A DNA stretch of 64,000 nt. Origin: Aliidiomarina sedimenti (GTDB lineage: Bacteria; Pseudomonadota; Gammaproteobacteria; Enterobacterales; Alteromonadaceae). The position numbers were made by a program, and so were the translations under genes. The stretch lies in the NCBI RefSeq assembly GCF_003986955.1, contig NZ_PIPN01000005.1:1-64000 (forward strand), written 5' to 3'. This document shows, in pieces, positions 3,448 to 60,857 of this stretch. The notes below the pieces were generated by a model, which worked only from the letters and a program-made list of their open reading frames with translations, had not been told where the DNA came from and ran no database searches. The stretch's first letter is position 1. The number at the start of each line of letters is the position of its first letter.

Positions 3448-4314
3448 ATGAAATTATTAAAGACAGGACTTTTATTTCTATTCATAGCTAGCGCGACTGC
3501 CGCAGCGTACGAACCTGAACGCAATGCCTCATGCTACGCCTGTTCAGCTTACGAAAAACAAAACATAGCTCTTACTAAAGCATATAGCCTAGGGGCCGCA
3601 TAAAGTAGGATAAATGTTATTGACCTATCAAATGCTTCTGTAATTACTTTTCGTTATCAAAGCGCCTCATATCAAGACGGATTTGGAGATGTCTTAGGCC
3701 CTGGAAGCGAAAGCATACTTATAGCCCCTTCTAGTCAGTCGGTAAGGAATGCAACCCGAGAAGCGGCTGACTTCGTCGCAAGTCAAGGGATAGTATACCC
3801 AAGTGGAAGAGAAGGCATTCGAAATTCTGCCGATTTCGTAAATCACGCTCAAAAAAACAGAGTGATTGATGATTGGATTAATGATGAAAATCGATTTACT
3901 TGGTACGCGACTAATCTGCTTTCAATATTTGGAGGAGCTGCCTTTGATATTCTCAAGGGAATACAAATCCGAGTAAGATTTGAAGATGGATCCGAAATAG
4001 AAATCAAGAGCTTCGACTGGAATGGTCCAAATAAGACCTTTAATATGGTATATGTCGAGGGTTCAGCTTTAGATGCTGATAGTAACGAAGTTCCAACTAG
4101 GATCGGTGATTATACCAAGACTTTTTTTCTAACTGAAAGGCACGTAGAATCCTGGATAGAGAATGCCCAACGCAATGGCGTAAGCGTAGTACGAAGCTAT
4201 ACTCGCACGGGCACGCCTGATCGACCACTTCAAACGTCATGTCCGCCAGTCGGGAATAACAGATATAGATGTGAGATAGTCCCTCGTTCAGAAGATGCTA
4301 TAGGACCGGAGTAA
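3448..4314 (+). pseudogene. Secreted protein gene interrupted by one TAA codon
   Basis: ATG 3448 is preceded by AAGGAAATTTTG and opens a clear signal peptide (MKLLKTGLLFLFIASATAAA). The next residues contain CYACSAYEKQ, after which TAA stands at 3601-3603 (codon 52). The same frame then stays open for 236 more codons to TAA 4314, with protein-like sequence throughout (for example YRCEIVP near the end). The first open stretch and the one starting at GTG 3862 are therefore parts of one 288-codon frame. No family is recognised. Recent inactivation is the simplest reading; read-through or a sequencing error are alternatives. Confidence 0.65.
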
Positions 4315-4698: not shown

Positions 4699-4893
4699 GG
4701 TTTTCTTAATATCACTTAACGAATCCCGAAACGCCGCATGATGCAGGCTCAAGACTCGTTGAAGGAAAGCGAAAGCGACACCTAAAGCTGGGTATCAATT
4801 TTTCAGATAGTCCGAGATCCCCCCAAAATCCCCCCCCAAAAAAGTAGCTAGGTTTGGCTGTTCTACATAAGACTGTATTTTACTACAGGCAAT

Positions 4894-4919
4894 AAAAAAC
4901 CCAGCAATTACGCTGGGTT
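4894..4919 (-). terminator. Terminator, probably the original ssrA terminator
   Basis: On the minus strand ACCCAGC / GCTGGGT is followed by six T. It lies 31 bp outside the left 31-bp repeat, in the position that directly followed the ssrA 3' end before the element integrated. I therefore infer that it is the displaced native terminator of ssrA. Confidence 0.75.
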
Positions 4920-4949
4920 AGTAGACAATATAAGACTTGTCTGGTCTTT

Positions 4950-4980
4950 GATATGGTGGAGCTGGCGGGATTTGAACCCG
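4950..4980 (-). repeat. Attachment site repeat, distal copy
   Basis: A 31-bp sequence identical to 11537-11567, which is the 3' end of ssrA. Here it is followed by unrelated DNA (AATACGAATCC) instead of the rest of tmRNA. It therefore marks the far junction of the element, produced by site-specific recombination. Confidence 0.9.
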
Positions 4981-5038
4981 AATACGAATCCTTTTAACGA
5001 CGATGCATTCGAGTTCTTATTCTCTAGTTTCAAGGAGC

Positions 5039-5078
5039 CATGTTACTTGGCGTGTTACTTTTGGCTGGCGCGTGTTTC
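5039..5078. repeat. Putative integrase arm sites, distal end
   Basis: Copies of the (A/C)GTGTTAC-type motif occur at 5039-5046 (CATGTTAC), 5051-5058 (CGTGTTAC) and 5071-5078 (CGTGTTTC), within 100 bp of the distal attachment repeat. The same motif clusters beside the integrase end at 11369-11416. Matching motifs near both ends are what integrase arm-binding or excisionase sites look like. Confidence 0.5.
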
Positions 5079-5108
5079 TTTTAACGTGTCGGAAAACACC
5101 CTTTGCTT

Positions 5109-5468
5109 TTAACGGCCTAGCCTTGTTTCCATATTGCTTTTATTGAAGTGGTACTCTTTAACTTTTCTTTCAGAGTCGAACCAAATTTGTAGCATTTCGA
5201 TATCAGTATTTGAGCCGCCAGCAAACAAACCAACTACAGGAATAAATGTCGCTGCATTAGTGGTCGAACGTGCAAAGGTGTAGACGTAAAAAAGCTCACC
5301 TTCTGCTGTAATCCCGCTTGAATTGGGGCTGCCAAACATGTTTTTCACTTCCTGCTCAGTCGTAACTCCCTTTTCAATATCTTGGATTTGAGCAGGATCA
5401 ATTTGAACACCTGCGCTAGCGCATCCTGTTAGCCAAATAATAGTGAGTATTGCGATTATTTTCTTCAT
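5109..5468 (-). CDS. SmpA/BamE-like lipoprotein, element cargo
   Basis: A 119-residue lipoprotein with a signal peptide and lipobox LTGC (Cys16). The start at ATG 5468 is supported by AAGGGA eight bases upstream. The mature part has the pattern of small SmpA/OmlA (BamE-like) domains: IQDIEKGVTTEQEVKNMFGS, then a strand-rich half with YVYTF and IWFDSERKVKEYHF. The real BamE is a subunit of the outer-membrane assembly machine. This protein lies alone at the distal end of the mobile element, separated from the replication genes, so it is probably cargo. A surface or exclusion role is conceivable but unsupported. Confidence 0.75.
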   Translation of the reverse strand: MKKIIAILTIIWLTGCASAGVQIDPAQIQDIEKGVTTEQEVKNMFGSPNSSGITAEGELFYVYTFARSTTNAATFIPVVGLFAGGSNTDIEMLQIWFDSERKVKEYHFNKSNMETRLGR

Positions 5469-5537
5469 AAAGATTCCCTTCTGCTTAGTTGTTAATTTTT
5501 CTGATTGTGAATGCTTAACTTCAAGCCATCCTCTCAC

Positions 5538-5819
5538 TTTTTACGGGTACTGAAAACACCCATTTTTTATAGTCAGGAAACTAACCCTAAGATAACCCTA
5601 AGGGTGCTAAGGTTTCACTAAGGGTAGCTCTCGCGCGTAAAGATGTCCGAAAACACCCGTTTGGCTCGCGTAGTGACTCTGCAAAAATCTTCACTTGGCT
5701 TTTGCATGACCTCTGAAATGATCCAAAGCATTGAGGTAATCTTGAGGTACTCAGTCACTCCCGCGCGCGTACTGGTAGTAAAACACCCTTTTTCCATCGC
5801 GTAGCGGCTTCCAAAAGCC
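5538..5819. other. Non-coding repeat region of the element
   Basis: This 280-bp stretch separates the lipoprotein gene from the replication-type genes. It contains three of the GAAAACACCC repeats and a cluster of AACCCTAAG direct and inverted repeats (5583-5625). A short minus-strand frame here (5618-5845) has no protein-like composition and is treated as chance. A cis-acting site such as a replication origin or control region is the best guess. Confidence 0.45.
5583..5625. repeat. AACCCTAAG direct and inverted repeats
   Basis: AACCCTAAG occurs at 5583-5591 and 5594-5602, spaced 11 bp apart, with the reverse form CTAAGGGT at 5598-5605 and 5618-5625. The one-turn spacing suggests a protein-binding array. 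Confidence 0.5.
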
Positions 5820-6074
5820 TTACCCCTGCTTGTTGACTTGTCCATCCAACTCAGCTTTAACCCCGTGTAAACCTGAATAACCCAGCCGTTGTAAAAACCT
5901 TAACAGGCGTTGCGGTGTCCATTCGTTACCCCATGTTGTTTTTAACTGCTGAGCATTGAGCGCGGCGGCGACTTGTTTGTAACTTGGCGGGCTGTATTGG
6001 TGTGAACTACTAACGATCAATTTAACCGCGCTCAGAGCGGCATCACGGCGTCTTAATTGCTCATCCCTTGTCAT
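5820..6074 (-). CDS. Small element protein, recombinase-like helical domain
   Basis: An 84-residue protein. The segment SYKQVAAALNAQQLKTTWGN followed by EWTPQRLLRFLQRLGYSGLH matches the pattern of the small helical 'recombinase' domain found in large serine recombinases (A..LN..G..T..G..W....V...L...Y.G). No resolvase catalytic domain is present, so it is not a recombinase itself. It probably binds DNA in the element. It follows the 6123 gene by 48 bp in the same direction. The function is inferred only from the fold-like pattern. Confidence 0.6.
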   Translation of the reverse strand: MTRDEQLRRRDAALSAVKLIVSSSHQYSPPSYKQVAAALNAQQLKTTWGNEWTPQRLLRFLQRLGYSGLHGVKAELDGQVNKQG

Positions 6075-6122
6075 GCTTCACCTCAGAATAAAGGCGCTCA
6101 GCGTTCGCCTTGCGCCGTGTGT

Positions 6123-6536
6123 TTACTTGGTGGCTTTCAGTAACCAGCTATTAGCAGAGAATCGGGCTTTACCTTCTTTCCGTTGCTCCAGCGGCTCGGT
6201 ATCATAAACGGCTTTGAAGCGCTCGGCATATTCAGCGGCGAGCCTAAGCCTCTCTGCTTTGCTTTGGATTCGTCGAAGTTTTCCAGCTATCCATTCACGA
6301 TCACCAAAACGCCAGCCGTTTGAGCCTCCATCATAGAAATGAACAGGCATTCCATCATGGGTAACTAAGTCGTTTGCTAAGTCATCATTAGCGGCGCGCT
6401 CAGGTTGTCGGATGTGTCGATTTGTCGGAAACGCTGATTTATTCGCTGCTGGTAATGTCGGAATGGTGTCGGAATGTGTCGGAAAGTCAGTAAAGCCGTT
6501 ACCTTGCTTAATTTTCTGAGCGATTTTAAGCCCCAT
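6123..6536 (-). CDS. Hypothetical element protein
   Basis: A 137-residue protein of unknown family. The N-terminal 50 residues are polar and low in complexity, and are encoded by DNA carrying the CCGACA repeats. The C-terminal part (HFYDGGSNGWRFGDREWIAG, then a basic helical stretch) looks like a conserved folded domain. The start at ATG 6536 overlaps the end of the upstream 49-codon gene by 11 bp, so translation is likely coupled. The repeats may explain the low-complexity N-terminus: the DNA could be conserved as a cis site rather than for the protein. Confidence 0.6.
   Translation of the reverse strand: MGLKIAQKIKQGNGFTDFPTHSDTIPTLPAANKSAFPTNRHIRQPERAANDDLANDLVTHDGMPVHFYDGGSNGWRFGDREWIAGKLRRIQSKAERLRLAAEYAERFKAVYDTEPLEQRKEGKARFSANSWLLKATK
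6406..6482 (-). repeat. CCGACA iterons, array 1
   Basis: On the plus strand TGTCGG occurs at 6406, 6423, 6456, 6467 and 6477, with TGTCGA at 6415. The last three are 10-11 bp apart, one helical turn. The motif (CCGACA on the minus strand) recurs in array 2 at 10022-10100 and once at 5087. The array lies inside the start of the 6123-6536 gene. Confidence 0.65.
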
Positions 6537-6675
6537 GATTCACCTCACTGGCTGGCGCGCTGTGATACTCCAAAGCCAGCTCGAAAGCTGGCGATAAGTC
6601 TAGCGGTGGTAACCTAAAATCTAACGGCTCGAAAGTGGTTAAGTCGATTTGCGGCAGCGTTTCAAAGTCAATCAT
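6526..6675 (-). CDS. Small hypothetical protein in the element operon
   Basis: A 49-residue frame from ATG 6675 to TAA 6526. It begins MIDFETLPQIDLTTFEPLDF and is acidic and proline-rich, with an amphipathic C-terminal half. It is supported by its position. A strong GGAGG lies upstream, its start overlaps the stop of the DUF3987 gene (TGA at 6670-6668 lies within the first codons), and its end overlaps the start of the 6123-6536 gene. This tight coupling argues for a translated gene. No family is recognised. Confidence 0.6.
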   Translation of the reverse strand: MIDFETLPQIDLTTFEPLDFRLPPLDLSPAFELALEYHSAPASEVNHGA

Positions 6676-8173
6676 TAGCGGCCTCCAATGCACGGCGATT
6701 CAATCGCCAGGCTTCGCGCGCCTTTTCACCATTCAAAAGCGTGTCACTCGATAACGGAAAAAGCCAGCCGTTTTCCTCTAGCAATCGCAATGTTTCGCGC
6801 GCGTGCTGTGCGCTCTTAACTTTGCGTGTTCCCTTGTTTACTTGGTTTACTGTGATCACGTCCAAGCCCTTACTCATGATCCATTGAATAACATCCTGAG
6901 CGGCTACATACTCAGCGCCAGCATTGCCTTGCTTAGTTAATCTCAGCGCCTCGGTTAAATACCAGTCACCCAGAATAATTGCGCGGCTCATGGTGTCACC
7001 TGTAACCCGTTCGGCGTTCTGGTTGTCGATAATCGTTAGCACCCCAGCAATGCGTGCGATTTGCTCGGCCACCTTTGCAGCGGTTGCTTTAATCTCGGAG
7101 TAGTCACCCGACGGAGCAAGCGCCAGCTCGATCTCGTTGTAAGCATCCACCCAAAGCGCTTTAGCTTCGCCCGTAACTTGCAGATCGCGCGGCTCTAATG
7201 TTCCGTCTGTATCTTTGGGTTGCTCAGCTTCCAGTAAGCGCGTCATAAGCTGCTGGTAGCGCTTAACTGTTTGGTTGGTAGTTAGGTCGATTTCTTGGTA
7301 TTTGCGTCGTCCTGCGAGGCTCTCAGGGGCAGCCATGAGAAAGCGAGCTAAGAACCCTTGACCAGACAACAATCCATCAGAGAGAACTCGCTGAGCAATG
7401 ACAGGCTGAACCATTAAATGAATGCTCAGACGCGGGTTTTTGATGCTCATGCTTTCACCTTCGCCAGCTCGCAAGCGGTGAATGTCTTTTCCATCCCAAA
7501 AGGTTGAAAGCCCAGCAATGCTTTTTTGTGCGTTATCCTTGTTCATGGCATGGCCGCCGAAAAACGTACCGCCTTCATCACTGAATAAACCTTGCGAGCT
7601 TTGGCCGCCTGAGAAGCTCTTTTGCAATCCTTCCAGCGTCGGCTCTTGGCATATCAAAGTAGGTGCAAGTGGTGGCTCAGGCGGTGCGCCCAGCTCCATG
7701 AGCGCTTTTGCGATTTCCTCGCGCCCTTCCTTACGCTTGGTTTTCAAAACCTCTTGGCGGGCTGCGCTAAAAGCCTCTCGCTCATTCAAATAATAATCGT
7801 AACTTTCCTTGTAGCTCTCGAATAATTCGCGCTGGCGCTTGGCATGGGGTTGCGTTGCGACGTTATCCGTTCCGCTCTTTCGGTCGCCGCTCTCACTGAT
7901 TGTCAGACAAAACAAATTGAGCGGATAGGTGCGCCCGTCAATAATCACGTTTGCGAATGGTTGCGCGGCCAATGCAGCGGCAGCCAATACGCTTTGACCC
8001 GCCGTTGCTGGCGCTACCTGAACACCATCAGCGATTGCATGAGCGGCATCACCCAAAACAGCGCCCAGAGCTTCCAGCGGGTACGGCTCAGGCTTCAATT
8101 TTTCAGGCGTTAATGGTTGCGGCATCGGATCGTTAAATTCGCTTGGTGGTTTAATAACGGCTGGCTGATTCAT
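6668..8173 (-). CDS. DUF3987 (YfjI-type) ATPase-like protein
   Basis: A 501-residue protein of the DUF3987 family, common in phages, satellites and integrative elements. It has a variant P-loop (SESGDRKSG, about residues 93-101) after a strand, and an acidic Walker-B-like motif (LFSDEGG, about residue 196). The C-terminal part resembles a small winged-helix domain. These proteins are thought to act as helicase or ATPase partners of Toprim primases in element replication; that role is inferred. Start and stop codons overlap the neighbours: ATGA with the Toprim gene upstream, and the 49-codon gene downstream. This places it in one operon. Confidence 0.85.
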   Translation of the reverse strand: MNQPAVIKPPSEFNDPMPQPLTPEKLKPEPYPLEALGAVLGDAAHAIADGVQVAPATAGQSVLAAAALAAQPFANVIIDGRTYPLNLFCLTISESGDRKSGTDNVATQPHAKRQRELFESYKESYDYYLNEREAFSAARQEVLKTKRKEGREEIAKALMELGAPPEPPLAPTLICQEPTLEGLQKSFSGGQSSQGLFSDEGGTFFGGHAMNKDNAQKSIAGLSTFWDGKDIHRLRAGEGESMSIKNPRLSIHLMVQPVIAQRVLSDGLLSGQGFLARFLMAAPESLAGRRKYQEIDLTTNQTVKRYQQLMTRLLEAEQPKDTDGTLEPRDLQVTGEAKALWVDAYNEIELALAPSGDYSEIKATAAKVAEQIARIAGVLTIIDNQNAERVTGDTMSRAIILGDWYLTEALRLTKQGNAGAEYVAAQDVIQWIMSKGLDVITVNQVNKGTRKVKSAQHARETLRLLEENGWLFPLSSDTLLNGEKAREAWRLNRRALEAAND

Positions 8174-9075
8174 GCGGCCACCTCCATAAAAACTTTAGAA
8201 ATAACCTGTAATCCTTTTTGCTGAGCCAGATCGTTAAAATCCGTTCCCTCGTCGGTGTCGAATTGCGGAATAACAACAAAAGCGCCAGCATCACGCGCGG
8301 CAGCCTCGGCTTTTTGAACGCCCACGTTACCAATACTGGTAAAGCGGTCATTGTCGGCGGCTATGATGATTTGAGCGGCTGGCGCTCTCATGCGTAGCGA
8401 CGTCGCAACGGGATTTAAGTTATTAGCATTAAACGCCACCAAAACAGGTAAACCTGTCGCCTCATGGATGCTTGCGCCAGTAGCAAAGCCCTCGCATACA
8501 ATCCAAGTTTTTGAATTGGCATGCGTCGAACCTCCCAACGGGCAGAATGAGCCGCTGATTTTTCCACCCTTGCGGAATGTCTTACCGCCGTTCGGGTTGA
8601 TGAATTGCAGGCTGGTAATCGTCATATTGAAGTCAACCAAAGGGATCACTAATGAATCATCCCAGCAACGGGCAATATGCGGCTGAATGCGTTTAACGGT
8701 TAAATAGGGATGCAAGTCGGCGCTTGCCAGTGACTCCCATATTTGCGCGCATTTCTCGGCCACCTCGCGCTGCTCCTGCTCTTTTCTCAATCGCGCTTGG
8801 CGTTGCGCTTGCTCGATAATCTGGCGCGTTTCAGGGGCAATCTGAGAGCCTCCACCCTCGATAACGGTATGACTTGCGCCAGCCTTCCACGATCCAAAAA
8901 CGTGAACGGTAGGTGCGTCGGTATTGTAGTAACTAACCAGCCAGCCGTTTCTTGTTCCGCGTTTGTCGCTCGCTACTTGATAGCGTTGCAGCTCGCCACT
9001 ATTGAGAACTTCGAGAGGCTCAGCGGGAACTAATCCCGCCGCCTCCATTTCTTGCATTAGTTGATTATTCATCAT
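8170..9075 (-). CDS. Toprim domain protein (P4-type primase-like)
   Basis: A 301-residue protein with an N-terminal region resembling the P4-family primase-associated segment. A Toprim domain follows from about residue 185: VCEGFATGASIHEATG (catalytic Glu) and IIIAADND (acidic pair). No zinc-finger cysteines or helicase motifs are visible, so the separate DUF3987 protein probably supplies the ATPase function. The predicted role is primer synthesis or nicking for element replication. It overlaps the start of the DUF3987 gene by ATGA and the end of the upstream gene by ATGATGA, which means tight translational coupling. Confidence 0.85.
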   Translation of the reverse strand: MMNNQLMQEMEAAGLVPAEPLEVLNSGELQRYQVASDKRGTRNGWLVSYYNTDAPTVHVFGSWKAGASHTVIEGGGSQIAPETRQIIEQAQRQARLRKEQEQREVAEKCAQIWESLASADLHPYLTVKRIQPHIARCWDDSLVIPLVDFNMTITSLQFINPNGGKTFRKGGKISGSFCPLGGSTHANSKTWIVCEGFATGASIHEATGLPVLVAFNANNLNPVATSLRMRAPAAQIIIAADNDRFTSIGNVGVQKAEAAARDAGAFVVIPQFDTDEGTDFNDLAQQKGLQVISKVFMEVAA

Positions 9076-9440
9076 TGATTGGCCGCCTCCATGTGCTTAC
9101 GGATGGTGCGGCGCAAGTCTTTGCGTATTGGTTTTTGTAAAGCGATGTAAACAGGTTCTAAGTACCAGCGCCAGCTTTCACTTGGTTGGCCTGAGCGGTA
9201 CTTACTTATTACCCATCCAAGCCGAATAATTCGAGGGTTAAAGGCTTGGGTTACATTGTGGTGGTTATTCGATTTGTAGCCGAATTTTTCGCCTAACTCA
9301 TGCGTTAAAATCCCTTGATGCTCCCATACCAGCATCAGAATGCGGCATTCTCTCGATGTGCGAGCCACGCGCATAAGTTGAGTAGGCGGGTAGTCCATCG
9401 ACGCTTTACAATCGGCAAAGTTTAGTTTAGTGTTATTCAT
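9072..9440 (-). CDS. Putative winged-helix DNA-binding protein
   Basis: A 122-residue protein of unknown family. A helix-turn-helix-like segment (RILMLVWEHQGILTHELGEK, then FGYKSNNHHNVTQAF) is followed by a basic C-terminal half (KPIRKDLRRTIRKHM). This composition suggests DNA binding. It lies between alpA and the Toprim gene, overlapping the latter, so a regulatory or origin-binding role in the element is plausible. It is one of two candidate regulators in the element, the other being AlpA. Confidence 0.6.
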   Translation of the reverse strand: MNNTKLNFADCKASMDYPPTQLMRVARTSRECRILMLVWEHQGILTHELGEKFGYKSNNHHNVTQAFNPRIIRLGWVISKYRSGQPSESWRWYLEPVYIALQKPIRKDLRRTIRKHMEAANQ

Positions 9441-9484
9441 GATCTGTAGCCTCCTTGTAGGTCAGGATCGCTTGGAGAGAAATG

Positions 9485-9523
9485 AAAGCCAGTAATAGTG
9501 TTCCCGCACTAGCTGGCTTTTTT
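9485..9523 (+). terminator. Hairpin between alpA and the replication genes
   Basis: AAGCCAG...TAGTG / CACTA...CTGGCTT forms a long stem followed by six T on the plus strand. On the minus strand the T tail is poor. It lies downstream of alpA and upstream of the 9072-9440 start, so it may instead attenuate minus-strand transcription, or end an unseen antisense transcript. Confidence 0.5.
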
Positions 9524-9536
9524 CTTGTCTGAGTTT

Positions 9537-9746
9537 TCATGCGGCTTCCTCCTTCGCCTTTTCGATTTGCTCCCGAATAAAGTCCTGAATCTGTGTGCGT
9601 ACCCAGAACACGGAACGGCCACCCAAAGTAATAGGCTTTGGGAACTTGTTTTCATTCATTAGCCGATAAATTGAAGCGCGACTGTAACGCACGGCGTCCA
9701 TCACTTCATTTAATCGCATCAGCTCGTTTTCAGGTTGGTTTTGCAT
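9537..9746 (-). CDS. AlpA family transcriptional regulator
   Basis: A 69-residue AlpA-type protein with a MerR-like winged-helix. LMRLNEVMDAVRYSRASIYR is followed by LMNENKFPKPITLGGRSVFW, both classic for the family. AlpA/Vis proteins activate or repress the integrase and excision genes of P4-like elements. The start is ATG 9746: AAGAAGG lies eight bases upstream and covers the alternative GTG at 9755. It is the first gene downstream of a promoter at 9801-9829 carrying a palindromic operator. A hairpin separates it from the replication genes. Confidence 0.9.
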   Translation of the reverse strand: MQNQPENELMRLNEVMDAVRYSRASIYRLMNENKFPKPITLGGRSVFWVRTQIQDFIREQIEKAKEEAA

Positions 9747-9800
9747 AATTTTCACCTTCTTGTAAGTAATTCAGAACACCGAAAATCTCGATGTATGAAT

Positions 9801-9829
9801 AGACTACCTAGCTGGTCAGACCAGATCAA
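9801..9829 (-). promoter_or_regulatory. alpA promoter with FadR-like palindrome
   Basis: On the minus strand TTGATC (9829-9824) and TAGTCT (9806-9801) are spaced by exactly 17 bp and fit a sigma-70 -35/-10 pair. The spacer contains CTGGTC-A-GACCAG, a perfect 6+1+6 palindrome. The 17-mer AGCTGGTCAGACCAGAT (9810-9826) closely matches the known FadR operator form (CTGGTNNGACCAG). A repressor bound there would block RNA polymerase. Whether host FadR or an element protein binds is not known. Confidence 0.6.
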
Positions 9830-10021
9830 ACATAAAACATGATAAAATTAGCGGTTATGATACCGAGGGATGCTGCAAAAGTTTTCATAAAACAGAGGCT
9901 TTAATCTTGAATGCACGTATGCTTTGGCTTACAAGCTAAACGCTTGTTTAAAAAAAATTAACGCAATTTCAATTAGAACATTTTGGAATAAATGTGTACT
10001 TTTTTATTTCTTTGGGTTTTA

Positions 10022-10100
10022 CCGACACCCACCCGACAAGCTCCCGACACAAAAAAGCCCGCATAAATGCAGGCTTCCGACGTTTACGACACTTCCGACG
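10022..10100 (+). repeat. CCGACA iterons, array 2
   Basis: CCGACA occurs at 10022, 10033 and 10044, exactly 11 bp apart, and CCGACG at 10077 and 10095. The motif is the same as in array 1 (6406-6482), where it reads on the opposite strand. It lies in non-coding DNA just after the integrase gene, beside its terminator. Confidence 0.65.
10051..10075 (-). terminator. Integrase gene terminator
   Basis: On the minus strand AGCC-TGCAT / ATGC-GGGCT with a short loop is followed by six T, about 30 bp after the integrase stop at 10103. Confidence 0.8.
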
Positions 10101-10102
10101 GG

Positions 10103-11344
10103 TTAAACGGCTTTCAAATTGCGTCGGCCTTTACCGATTGCTAGTGAGCCCTGAGCGGCTTGCTCGATAAACTCACTCCACCATTGCATCATCAGGCGTC
10201 GGCGTTGCAGGTAATCGGCGCGATTGTATGCGGCTCTCACTGAATCTTTATCGCGATGCGCCAGCGCTGCTTCGATAATGTCAGGGTCAAAGCCCTGTTC
10301 ATTTAACGTCGTACTGGCAATAGAACGTAATCCATGAGCAACAAGGCGGTTTTTATAGCCCATACGTTTCAGCGCCATGTTTGCGGTTTGCTCGTTGGTT
10401 GGCTTCATTGGGTTTCTGTCACCTGTGAAAATAAACTCACCCGCGCCGCTGATTGGTTTCATTTCAGCCAAAAGAGAAAGCACCTGCTCAGTGAGCGGTA
10501 TGCTGTGATCATTTCGCATTTTCATGCGGCTGGCAGGAATTACCCAGAGCTGGTTTTCAAAGTCGATTTCATCCCAGCGCGCGCCCGCTGCTTCACTTGG
10601 TCGTGTCATGGTGTGAAGTTGGAACTCAATTAAACAGCGGGTAGTGAATTTAATGCTGGCGCGCTGAAGTGTGTGCATCAGCTCAGGCAATTCATCAGGC
10701 TTTAAGGCGGGTTGATTTTTGACGGTAGGTGCGTCAAATGCTTTGGCGATACCTTGCAGCGGGTTATGGTGGATAACGCCCGTATTGGTAGCCCAGATCA
10801 TAATCTCATTGATGCGCTGGCAAAGGCGGCGCAATGTTTCCAGAGAGCCTTTAGCCTCGATTGGTCGCAAAGCCTCAATGACTTGCGGCGCGGTCAGTTT
10901 GGCAATCGGGAATTTACCCAGCTTAGGGAAAGCGTGATTTCTCAGTGAGCGCTCTATGTCGTCGGCGTAGTCGGCCGTTACCTTTTTCCGCTTCTTGGTC
11001 ATCCAATCCATAGCGACGGTTTCAAAAGTAGCTTCATGTAGCTTCTTGTTAGCTTCCTGCTGCTGGCGCTCATGCTCCTGTGGATCGATGTTATTACCTA
11101 GCAAGCTGGCAAACTTTCGGCGGCGCTCTCTCGCTTCACTCAGTCCAGTTGCAGGATAATCACCAATCTTTAAGTTTGCGCGTTTTTTGGTGTATGGCCG
11201 ATAGTAATTAAACAGCCAGATTTTAGCTCCCGACGGTTTAACCCTAAGGTAAAGCCCGCCACCATCAGCAAGGTTAAACTCCTTTTCTTTTGGCTTGGCG
11301 TGTTCAACCTGTTTCGCATTGAGTAACTCTTTTCCTCGCGCCAT
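10103..11344 (-). CDS. Tyrosine recombinase integrase, P4 type
   Basis: A 413-residue site-specific recombinase of the P4 integrase group. The N-terminal arm-binding domain is DUF4102-like (LADGGGLYLRVKPSGAKIW). A core-binding domain and the catalytic domain follow, with Arg in HTMTRPSEAAG, the HGLRS box, AHRD and the nucleophile Tyr near AAYNRADY. It recombines the ssrA 3' end with the element attachment site. The gene starts about 190 bp inside the ssrA-side repeat, the usual place for an integrase, with putative arm sites just upstream of its start. It looks intact, so excision may still be possible. Confidence 0.95.
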   Translation of the reverse strand: MARGKELLNAKQVEHAKPKEKEFNLADGGGLYLRVKPSGAKIWLFNYYRPYTKKRANLKIGDYPATGLSEARERRRKFASLLGNNIDPQEHERQQQEANKKLHEATFETVAMDWMTKKRKKVTADYADDIERSLRNHAFPKLGKFPIAKLTAPQVIEALRPIEAKGSLETLRRLCQRINEIMIWATNTGVIHHNPLQGIAKAFDAPTVKNQPALKPDELPELMHTLQRASIKFTTRCLIEFQLHTMTRPSEAAGARWDEIDFENQLWVIPASRMKMRNDHSIPLTEQVLSLLAEMKPISGAGEFIFTGDRNPMKPTNEQTANMALKRMGYKNRLVAHGLRSIASTTLNEQGFDPDIIEAALAHRDKDSVRAAYNRADYLQRRRLMMQWWSEFIEQAAQGSLAIGKGRRNLKAV

Positions 11345-11368
11345 TTCCTTAGCCCCTTAGTTGATTTG

Positions 11369-11416
11369 GTAACACGGAATTTAGTAACACGTTAGCCGTG
11401 TTACCAGTTATGTTAC
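11369..11416. repeat. Putative integrase arm sites, proximal end
   Basis: GTAACACG occurs at 11369-11376 and 11384-11391, and the inverted form CGTGTTAC at 11397-11404 with TATGTTAC at 11409-11416. This pair of direct plus inverted copies lies between the integrase start and the attachment repeat, and matches motifs at the distal end (5039-5078). Confidence 0.55.
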
Positions 11417-11502
11417 TAAAAAACTAAGAAATAGCGAGGCCAAATAAGACCTTAAAATAGCAATATGGACTGTAAGTTATTGATTTTACTTTCTATTGGG
11501 CA

Positions 11503-11528
11503 CAAAAAAAGACGCCCTAAGACGTCTT
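11503..11528 (-). terminator. Replacement ssrA terminator supplied by the element
   Basis: On the minus strand AAGACG / CGTCTT with an eight-base loop is followed by seven T, only 12 bp after the ssrA 3' end. The sequence belongs to the element and takes the place of the displaced terminator at 4894-4919. Confidence 0.75.
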
Positions 11529-11536
11529 AATTTGTC

Positions 11537-11567
11537 GATATGGTGGAGCTGGCGGGATTTGAACCCG
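11537..11567 (-). repeat. Attachment site repeat, ssrA copy
   Basis: A 31-bp sequence identical to 4950-4980. It covers the acceptor stem and T-arm of tmRNA and extends four bases past CCA. Integration into it keeps ssrA intact, as usual for elements that target tRNA or tmRNA genes. Confidence 0.9.
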
Positions 11568-11895
11568 CGTCCGCAATAACTCCGCTCTCGGTCCTACATG
11601 CTTAGCCATCTCATTTAGTTAACTGCGTAAGTCGCCGAGTGGCAGGCTACTTAGCAGCGATCTCGATTAGTTTTAATGCTTCAGCTACGAGAGAAGCTTC
11701 CACACGAGTCTGATTTAGATGACTATCCGAACCTCGTCTCCCAGACTAAGCGCGAGTGGATAGTTAGCGGGTCTTAGGCCGCTAAAGCGTAGTTGTCGTC
11801 GTTTGCAACTATAAAGTTGAGGCTTTTTACGAGGCCAGCCTCACCTCGGCATGCACCTTAAGTTTCATTTATCCCGTCGAATCCAGATCAGCCCC
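11541..11895 (-). ncRNA. ssrA: Transfer-messenger RNA (tmRNA)
   Basis: A single-chain tmRNA of 355 nt. The 5' end GGGGCTGATCTGGATTCGAC is at 11895 and the 3' end GCTCCACCA is at 11541. The tag frame (11806-11774) reads ANDDNYALAA followed by TAA. It rescues ribosomes stalled on broken mRNAs and marks the peptides for proteolysis. The tRNA-like 3' half is the target of the integrated element. The mature ends are intact, so the gene should work. Confidence 0.97.
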
Positions 11896-37142: not shown

Positions 37143-37171
37143 CAAAAAAAGCAAGCCCGAAGGCTTGCTTT
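37143..37171 (-). terminator. Cold-shock gene terminator
   Basis: On the minus strand AGCAAGCC-TTCG-GGCTTGCT is followed by seven T. A UUCG loop makes it very stable. It lies 22 bp after the csp stop. Confidence 0.9.
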
Positions 37172-37192
37172 CTGGAATCTGTTCAGTCCGAC

Positions 37193-37402
37193 TTACAGCG
37201 GAGTGATGTTTTCCGCTTGAGGACCTTTAGGGCCTTGAGTTACAGTGAACTCAACGCGCTGGCCTTCAGCTAAAGTTTTGAAGCCGTTGCCCTGGATTGC
37301 GCTGAAATGAGCGAATACATCTGGACCGCCGTCTTGCTCAAGGAAGCCAAAACCTTTTGACTCGTTGAACCACTTTACTGAACCTTTGATAACTTCTGAC
37401 AT
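37193..37402 (-). CDS. Cold-shock-like protein (CspA family)
   Basis: A 69-residue nucleic-acid chaperone with the OB-fold RNA-binding motifs [12 protein letters not shown] (RNP1) and VFAHFSAI (RNP2). It melts RNA structure during cold or stress. It has a 205-bp upstream gap with AT-rich sequence, consistent with the long cold-sensing leaders seen in csp genes, though no defined structure was recognised. Length is normal and the gene has its own terminator. Confidence 0.96.
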
Positions 37403-37607
37403 ACTGGTAATTCCCGTATAAAAATTTGAAAAAATCGTGCGGATAAAAATAAAACTACTTGAAACTACAGGACGAAGAAATTACGAGTAATCAGACATCG
37501 AAGTGGAGGATCAATTAAATATTTCTTAACCGACGAGAGTCAGTTTACTCCCTATCGAGCAGAAGTCAAAACTTATTTCTGTATTTATTTCAAGGCGGCT
37601 GTGCACC

Positions 37608-60505: not shown

Positions 60506-60582
60506 TGGCGGAGCGGACGGGACTCGAACCCGCGACCCCCGGCGTGACAGGCCGGTATTCTAACCAACTGAACTACCGCTCC
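60506..60582 (-). tRNA. tRNA-Asp (GTC)
   Basis: A 77-nt tRNA with encoded CCA. The anticodon loop reads CCTGTCACG on the minus strand, giving GTC. All four stems pair. It is identical to the other two copies in the cluster and is the last in transcription order. Confidence 0.97.
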
Positions 60583-60662
60583 ACACGGTACTTTCTATCC
60601 GAAAGCTTGTTCATCTTTGTGCATGTTTTTTCTGCTTGCTGCTTGCGTTTGCTCAGTTCAAG

Positions 60663-60739
60663 TGGCGGAGCGGACGGGACTCGAACCCGCGACCCCCGGC
60701 GTGACAGGCCGGTATTCTAACCAACTGAACTACCGCTCC
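60663..60739 (-). tRNA. tRNA-Asp (GTC)
   Basis: A 77-nt tRNA identical to its neighbours, with encoded CCA and anticodon GTC. It is separated from the third copy by 41 bp and from the first by 80 bp. Confidence 0.97.
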
Positions 60740-60780
60740 ACATACCTGAGCTTACGCTAACATTGCATCAAGAAACGAAT

Positions 60781-60857
60781 TGGCGGAGCGGACGGGACTC
60801 GAACCCGCGACCCCCGGCGTGACAGGCCGGTATTCTAACCAACTGAACTACCGCTCC
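60781..60857 (-). tRNA. tRNA-Asp (GTC)
   Basis: A 77-nt tRNA, first of the three identical copies, with encoded CCA and anticodon GTC. Its 5' end is about 110 bp from the TIGR03503 gene. Confidence 0.97.

Follow-up and report, generated by a model that had tools for sequence, protein, structure and literature searches.

The 64,000-nt window analysed here (Aliidiomarina sedimenti, contig NZ_PIPN01000005.1, positions 1–64,000) carries a compact integrative element at the 3′ end of ssrA, the gene for transfer-messenger RNA (tmRNA). With a probability of roughly 60 %, the element is read as having a helper-dependent lifestyle similar to that of the phage-inducible chromosomal minimalist islands (PICMIs). 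Its ends and its target are as follows:

4950–4980: distal 31-bp direct repeat, the far end of the attachment-site core; exact match to 11537–11567
11537–11567: proximal 31-bp direct repeat, overlapping the ssrA 3′ end; exact match to 4950–4980
11541–11895, minus strand: ssrA (tmRNA), the intact target gene (ARAGORN and Rfam RF00023, 236 bits; tag ANDDNYALAA)

The two repeats bound a unit of 6,587 bp. The 26-bp core of the repeat has two matches in 64 kb (three or fewer mismatches), compared with none in each of 100 shuffles, and the 31-bp repeats around a unit of ~6.6 kb in ssrA described in the original prediction are thus upheld. In a search of 17 genomes of the genus, its own included, the element DNA matched itself and 13 of the 16 others, the latter nearly always in the ssrA repeat only; three congeners gave no match. 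G008 has two extra matches, one of 63 % within a section of the integrase gene and one of ~36 bp. The element is absent from all 16 other genomes of the genus. By blastn, a single repeat copy is present at ssrA in 13 of the 16 congeners; a second copy bounds other islands in G008 and G011, and G016 has an imperfect second copy 175 bp off. The left flank of the element is contiguous with ssrA, with a single repeat copy at the junction, in G005 (from 4819) and G004 (from 4782), and G003 shares just the last ~95 bp or so of this flank at 79 % identity. These exact, uninterrupted junctions support the boundary, yet they do not demonstrate a virgin site, because the flank there lies between ssrA and a different integrase. 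An empty-site comparison thus agrees with the predicted insertion, and only element genes lie inside the paired repeats, so that the integrase is not part of a larger prophage. A target-gene repeat at both ends, an intact integrase and an uninterrupted junction elsewhere characterize this unit as a tyrosine-recombinase integrative element.

All genes of the element are on the minus strand, in the order integrase, AlpA, a 122-aa protein, Toprim, DUF3987, three small open reading frames (ORFs) and a lipoprotein:

10103–11344, minus strand: tyrosine integrase of the IntA/CP4-57 type, 413 aa (Pfam PF00589 and others; NF007246, 511 bits)
9537–9755, minus strand: AlpA-type excisionase/regulator, 72 aa (PF05930, 1e-15; 28 % to CP4-57 AlpA)
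9072–9440, minus strand: 122-aa protein between alpA and the primase gene, with an ATGA overlap with the next gene
8170–9075, minus strand: DnaG-type Toprim primase, 301 aa (PF13362, 5e-17; phrog_2249, DNA primase, 7e-71)
6668–8173, minus strand: DUF3987 ATPase with an MCM-like fold, 501 aa (PF13148, 1e-91; phrog_2373, helicase, 1e-71)
6526–6693, minus strand: 55-codon ORF (49 codons from an internal ATG), overlapping both neighbours; an ORF only
6123–6536, minus strand: 137-aa protein (phrog_852, 4e-10)
5820–6074, minus strand: 84-aa putative helix-turn-helix protein (weak PF20552, 2e-5, below the family cut-off)
5109–5537, minus strand: BamE/SmpA-like lipoprotein with a probable start at the internal Met24 (PF04355, 5e-8; phrog_3135, 2e-20)

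Profile hidden Markov models confirmed the predicted integrase, AlpA, Toprim (as Toprim_3), DUF3987 and lipoprotein (as BamE-like). The close coupling that had been noticed was likewise borne out, with ATGA overlaps at 9072–9075 (122-aa protein/Toprim) and 8170–8173 (Toprim/DUF3987) and the 49-codon gene at the internal ATG of the 55-codon ORF. The predicted lack of virion genes also held: no capsid, tail, portal, terminase or relaxase family was matched by Pfam in nine ORFs or by PHROGs in ten. For the 122-aa protein there was no Pfam, PHROGs, PADLOC or NCBIfam match, and its single-sequence structure model has a mean predicted confidence (pLDDT) of 43. The 55-codon ORF has no Pfam or PHROGs match. 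The 122-, 84- and 55-residue proteins have no relative among the ORFs of the compared loci save one 23-residue match to the last of them (E 0.009). The C-terminal phrog_852 motif of the 137-aa protein recurs, by weak phmmer matches (E 0.002 and E 0.03), in L104:11302–11958 and L106:11407–11997, which suggests that proteins with this motif may form a third part of the replication set.

Both presumed replication proteins retain conserved residues: E195, D241 and D243 of the Toprim are invariant in an alignment of 10 sequences, and S95, G96, R98, K99, D199 and E200 of the DUF3987 protein in one of 22. A structure model of the latter from these 22 sequences (pLDDT 88, pTM 0.85) gave as best Foldseek matches in the PDB chains of MCM complexes (top E 2.7e-5). 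There were 44 matches at E ≤0.001, two of them RuvB. The likeness to MCM is a remote relation of fold, since query TM-scores were ≤0.39 among the matches listed. DUF3987 has been predicted to stand in for MCM or DnaB as replicative helicase in primase proteins, as far as the cited part of that work goes (PMC5862659), and the protein of the window is likewise a predicted replicative helicase. A quick tree built on 131 DUF3987 rows places it in a clade of 89 rows (support 99) and, inside that, in a set of 27 (support 95); the CP4-57 rows fall elsewhere and the fis-linked rows lie far off, although long branches meet in this tree and the deep joins are unsure.

The closest model for such an element in size and gene order is the PICMI. 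The described part of PMC10803314 presents PICMI115 as a 6.1 kb (6,110 bp) island of six genes (int, iolg, alpA, up1, prim and up2) in which excision needs int, iolg and alpA and replication needs prim. As described there, it has no identifiable packaging gene and is carried as concatemers in a virulent phage; Vibrionaceae PICMIs average 6.7 kb, and the authors name integration at fis a hallmark (PMC10803314). The element of the window is of similar size (6,587 bp), with the order int, alpA, small gene, DUF3987-type gene and a variable cargo at the other end; PF00589, PF05930 and PF13148 are co-localized within 6.6 kb, in agreement with the PICMI model of an integrase, AlpA and a DUF3987/DUF5906 primase, and neither here nor in PICMI was a capsid-remodelling or packaging gene found. 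However, the target is ssrA rather than fis, and the primase is a separate DnaG-type Toprim, whereas fis-linked locus L324 encodes a Prim-Pol domain fused to DUF3987, with an adjacent AlpA. In fis-linked L323, taken as a stand-in for PICMI115, Pfam recognized DUF3987 and an integrase and no AlpA; BLASTP found no significant similarity between its prim and the Toprim or DUF3987 of the window. The integrase is 23 % identical to that of L323, and the DUF3987 proteins lie in distant clades, albeit over a long-branch join. Membership of PICMI is rejected on the ssrA site, the DUF3987 clade and the BLASTP result; what is proposed is a PICMI-like lifestyle.

A second model is the Pseudomonas satellite phiAH14b. 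The cited part of PMC4936722 reports that only AH14a-encoded virion proteins were found, indicating packaging in AH14a particles. The integrase (34 %), AlpA (27 %) and stand-alone Toprim (39 %, to its topoisomerase-primase), followed by a helicase gene, stand in the same order in both. Unlike the element of the window, phiAH14b spans 16.8 kb with a tail-assembly homologue and many other genes, and between its helicase gene and the DUF3987 BLASTP shows no similarity at E 1. It is the nearest satellite with experimental support; the Vibrio PICMIs are nearest by size and gene order. The suspected dependence on a helper phage is thus plausible from these relatives, phiAH14b and PICMI, and does not follow from the sequence of the window.

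If the element does behave in this way, AlpA would switch the integrase to excision, and the excised circle would be replicated by Toprim and DUF3987 from repeat-rich DNA. An infecting phage would then package the element DNA, probably as concatemers, packaging and capsid genes of its own not having been found in the element, and the packaged element would re-integrate in ssrA of a new cell. The DNA itself shows ssrA kept whole and furnished with a terminator-like hairpin by the element. The terminal lipoprotein would probably alter the cell surface and thereby exclude competing phages, a role in superinfection exclusion.

The reading as a PICMI-like, helper-dependent element draws on the boundaries and open frames, the kinship of the integrase with CP4-57 IntA, the GTAACAYG repeats at both ends, the invariant residues, the MCM-like model of DUF3987, phiAH14b, PICMI and a Pseudomonas tmRNA island carried by a jumbo phage. 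It draws further on the lipoprotein, which phages carry as a moron; on a census of relatives; and on one repeat-bounded relative with a head gene. From its internal start the lipoprotein matches 13 phage records, the best at 48 % in Alteromonas phage P24. Gene context was inspected in eight of these. The gene lies beside or near an annotated repressor in three (PhiR26_1, P54 and S107), and perhaps in P52, where the genes are unnamed; it lies beside the integrase in two (Lodos and D14L) and in the head–tail region in two (P24 and RAH1). Given this placement it looks like a phage moron, and in the element it looks like cargo related to such morons. PADLOC gave no match for it.

For the census, the best 80 of 162 confirmed genome loci and four viral loci were used, and a DUF3987 ORF was annotated automatically in 81 of the 84. 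In 32 of the 81, a tRNA gene and the far side of DUF3987 share an exact repeat of 14 bp or more, with a span of ≤10 kb in 21 of the 32; this count was made without a shuffled control, chance alone would give an exact 14-bp match in ~1 % of loci, and repeated tRNA genes may add false pairs. Ten of these 21 have an integrase, AlpA and DUF3987, and 13 have no other ORF of at least 400 residues; AlpA, integrase and Toprim were sought with the window proteins only, so that the counts are lower bounds. The repeat-bounded relative with a head gene is L108:5698–15306 of Stutzerimonas stutzeri A563/77, a 9.6-kb tRNA-Leu element that encodes an integrase, a Toprim and a DUF3987 protein along with an HK97 major head protein. 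The part of its ORFs that was scanned showed neither terminase nor portal, and the element is perhaps a capsid-modifying or capsid-forming satellite.

Cargo in the relatives includes type IIG restriction enzymes (L161 and L174) and, in L106 (14.6 kb), a methyltransferase and a helicase; Pfam had no match for seven of the ten cargo proteins scanned. In L106, as in L104, the protein with the phrog_852 motif is encoded directly downstream of DUF3987. A circular Pseudomonas putida record of 19,249 bp listed as a plasmid (NZ_CP043577.1; L094) encodes a DUF3987 protein (38 %), an integrase-domain protein and restriction-modification genes, and could represent a related type of island in excised form.

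Several observations weigh against a PICMI-like lifestyle. Excision, replication and packaging of the element are steps that we infer. The element showed neither a packaging signal nor a known hijacking gene, and the DNA search of the 17 genomes found no second copy of it in the genus. A resident helper was not found in the genome of the window with three families: the portal PF04860 and Terminase_6N PF03237 gave no match, and the two matches to phrog_2, which we take to be a terminase family, are RecD and TmcA. Since no resident helper is seen with these three families, the phage, if one is used, probably comes from outside, as in PICMI. Ten tmRNA-linked relatives (L098, L105, L115, L121, L128, L130, L135, L140, L142 and L151) have no significant bounding repeat. 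Additionally, 333 Toprim relatives (80 kept) and 49 DUF3987 loci were confirmed in viral contigs, many of them of ~35–48 kb. In one such locus, L435, integrase, AlpA and DUF3987 are followed ~3.5 kb downstream by a terminase large subunit and a portal. Because relatives are common in viral contigs, Toprim and DUF3987 alone do not mark a satellite. Terminal repeats or concatemers were found in none of 66 viral loci (49 DUF3987 and 17 of the 80 Toprim), a result of little weight as many are contig excerpts.

These long contigs, together with L435 and the presence of the lipoprotein in complete phages too, are what would be expected if a longer temperate phage, with the same integrase, AlpA and replication genes, had shed those for head, tail and lysis, leaving a dead-end remnant. 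Such an origin is improbable, however, as the named genes are open and tightly packed, both attachment repeats and both arm-like repeat sets are present, no virion-gene family was matched in the ORFs scanned, and compact repeat-bounded DUF3987 elements of 6.4–10 kb recur in many genera.

The want of a packaging or hijacking gene would also fit an integrative element that excises and replicates and spreads independently of phage, by conjugation in trans (with an origin of transfer, oriT, only), by transformation or in vesicles, and plasmid records hold 41 DUF3987 and 4557 Toprim relatives at E 1e-5. This is unlikely: the nine scanned ORFs gave no match to a relaxase (no search for an oriT was made), and the nearest experimentally supported mover with integrase, AlpA and Toprim is phiAH14b, a phage satellite.

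Islands at the same site were considered next to the PICMI-like reading. CP4-57 of Escherichia coli shares with the element the ssrA site, an IntA-type integrase (52 % identity), AlpA (28 %) and, in the same order, a DUF3987 of the same Pfam family (YfjI, 25 %), so the element might be a CP4-57-type island trimmed to its ssrA-proximal arm with the distal part lost. This is very improbable. Unlike the element, CP4-57 is ~22 kb long, has no annotated Toprim gene, carries YfjJ and genes such as RnlAB and has a DUF3987 of another clade. The DUF3987 of the window belongs to the 89-row clade rather than to that of YfjI, and no YfjJ follows it, the downstream ORFs having other matches or none. Loci of the CP4-57 type pair YfjI with YfjJ in 11 of 17 annotated loci of the order and 8 of 16 of genus g38 (inferred to be Vibrio), and in none of these 11 and 8 was a Toprim relative found. 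Moreover, the distal repeat is intact.

Further islands directly downstream of tmRNA with a tyrosine integrase and AlpA, and without recognized transfer genes, are I23, I44 and I55 of Pseudomonas (PMC12595487). The cited part of that source reports that a jumbo phage carries a tmRNA island of Pseudomonas that encodes intY and alpA, I55 being transduced by one. They differ from the element in size (<20 kb to >70 kb) and often have RadC, YqaJ and Gp2-like genes; a search of the main text for DUF3987, Toprim or primase gave nothing.

The original prediction had called the element P4-like. Satellite P4 has an integrase, an AlpA-type regulator and a Toprim-type primase and depends on a helper; P4-like satellites have a fused primase-helicase alpha protein and capsid and polarity genes of the sid, psu and delta type. 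The element shares the first three components, and a helper-dependent lifestyle is suspected for it too. In contrast, its primase and helicase are separate ORFs with an ATGA overlap, the helicase is a DUF3987, and no sid/psu/delta-type family was matched in the same Pfam and PHROGs scans. The kinship of integrase, AlpA and Toprim therefore stands, while membership of the P4-like satellites is rejected on gene content, with no capsid-sizing or polarity family. Some of these P4 features are described in the cited part of PMC4936722. Regarding phage-inducible chromosomal islands (PICIs) and capsid-forming PICIs (cfPICIs), no packaging-redirection, packaging or head family was matched in the ORFs scanned.

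A search for relatives of the DUF3987 was positive in one of 58 near relatives, which is the genome itself, and in 26 of 369 genomes of the class when this genome is counted. PF13148 is present in 21 of 394 genomes of the order, again counting it, and in none of 11 genomes in the genus of G034. In g38 it is matched in 23 of 227 genomes; 16 loci were fetched, two of them fis-linked. No fis-linked element was present among the annotated loci of the order (17 with PF13148 and 12 with PF19263).

A tentative extension, to which somewhat less than an even chance is given, is that the element belongs to a widespread, unnamed group of minimal satellites of Gamma- and Alphaproteobacteria with a PICMI-like role and a different replication set. 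In this group a DnaG-type Toprim, usually separate, and an MCM-like DUF3987 would replace the archaeo-eukaryotic-type primase fused to DUF3987, and tRNA or tmRNA genes would take the place of fis. If so, minimal satellites would have arisen repeatedly from one small set of parts. That an element with the size and gene order of a PICMI lies in ssrA of another genus, and that many Pseudomonadota hold compact relatives, suggests that such satellites extend beyond the fis-based definition, and opens a direct test of which few genes suffice for use of a phage particle.

Elements with int, alpA and prim outside Vibrionaceae are already known: according to the cited part of the report, the first PICMI model, with fis optional, returned 135 from complete genomes, of which 67 belong to Vibrionaceae and the remainder are larger, while complete PICMIs are reported only in Vibrio and none without fis (PMC10803314). 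By titles and abstract openings, no description of compact Toprim-plus-DUF3987 elements as a group was found in the literature, a negative limited by work that could cover such elements: that on virion-encapsidated integrative mobile elements (VEIMEs) and tycheposons, PMC6174562 and PMC9964261 (both with DUF3987 and ‘genomic island’), PMC10111431 and PMC8628076. Of the last two, as far as their topics go, PMC10111431 deals with helper-embedded satellites with AlpA and PMC8628076 with P4-like satellites. The PICMI paper was the sole find joining DUF3987 with satellite, integrase and phage (PMC10803314).

The DNA of the element and its left border hold several repeats and hairpins:

5039–5058, minus strand: pair of GTAACAYG repeats with 12-bp spacing, candidate integrase arm sites at the distal end
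11369–11404: three GTAACAYG repeats, candidate integrase arm sites at the integrase end
5538–5819: candidate replication origin, a 282-bp stretch lying between named genes, with three GGGTGTTTT repeats and, in addition, CTTAGGGT repeats
6456–6482, plus strand: three TGTCGG repeats (spacing 11 and 10 bp) inside the 137-aa gene, with a further TGTCGGAA at 6423
10022–10049, minus strand: three TGTCGG repeats (spacing 11 bp) upstream of alpA
11509–11528, minus strand: terminator-like hairpin immediately past ssrA, contributed by the element; a consensus match only
4898–4919: older terminator-like hairpin in the left flank, now 6.6 kb from ssrA

Five of the seven GTAACAYG copies in 64 kb are at the element ends (5039 and 5051; 11369, 11384 and 11397), an arrangement seen in 0 of 2000 dinucleotide shuffles. 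The repeats would fit arm sites on the two arms of one attP. None of eight ssrA-linked or IntA-type islands (L079, CP4-57, L098, L105, L205, L216, L320 and L322) shows enrichment of the motif at its ends, and an arm-site motif common to such islands is rejected. Of five GGGTGTTTT copies in 64 kb, four lie within ~700 bp (5093–5788) in DNA between named genes (0 of 2000 shuffles); the fourth, at 5093, is outside the 5538–5819 stretch, which is a candidate origin of replication. Two phased TGTCGG triplets occurred in 0 of 2000 dinucleotide shuffles and, with any hexamer allowed, in 1 of 200; the repeat motifs were chosen after inspection, and the latter figure is the fairer. Terminator-like sites number 17, against 9.0 (sd 3.3) in shuffles, and there is no excess of promoters (2 against 8.3).

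Outside the element, the sequence to its left has a history of its own:

4782–4949: end of another ssrA-integrating island (remnant), ~87 % to the ssrA-proximal island ends of G005 and G004

Plain host sequence was rejected for 4782–4950 in view of its likeness to the part next to ssrA in another kind of ssrA island. The flank-like stretch of G005 and G004 lies between ssrA and another integrase (32 % and 28 % to that of the window, the second broken by stops), with alpA beyond it. In G004 the flank is more alike than ssrA (87 % against 81 %), which points to horizontal arrival. Thus 4782–4950 appears to come from the border of an earlier ssrA island of another type, so that islands are stacked in the window. 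No integrase follows this flank in the window, hence it looks like a remnant; ORFs further left (346–804, 1502–2329 and 3862–4314) have no Pfam match.

Several other congeners have a different common flank of ~115–180 bp beside ssrA, and the stretches fetched there (for G013, ~1.2 kb only) hold no relative of the integrase of the window. The second repeat copy in G011 (L080) is ~4.7 kb from ssrA and encloses a 544-aa ORF and smaller ORFs, none related to this integrase. The ssrA island of G008 (L079:3599–19187, ~15.5 kb) has no detected relative of the DUF3987 or Toprim; it encodes an integrase 52 % identical to that of the window, at least two alpA, an NA37 nucleoid-associated protein and a subtilase. 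Elsewhere in the window are a cspA thermoregulator match (37143–37533) and three consecutive tRNA-Asp (gtc) genes (60506–60857).

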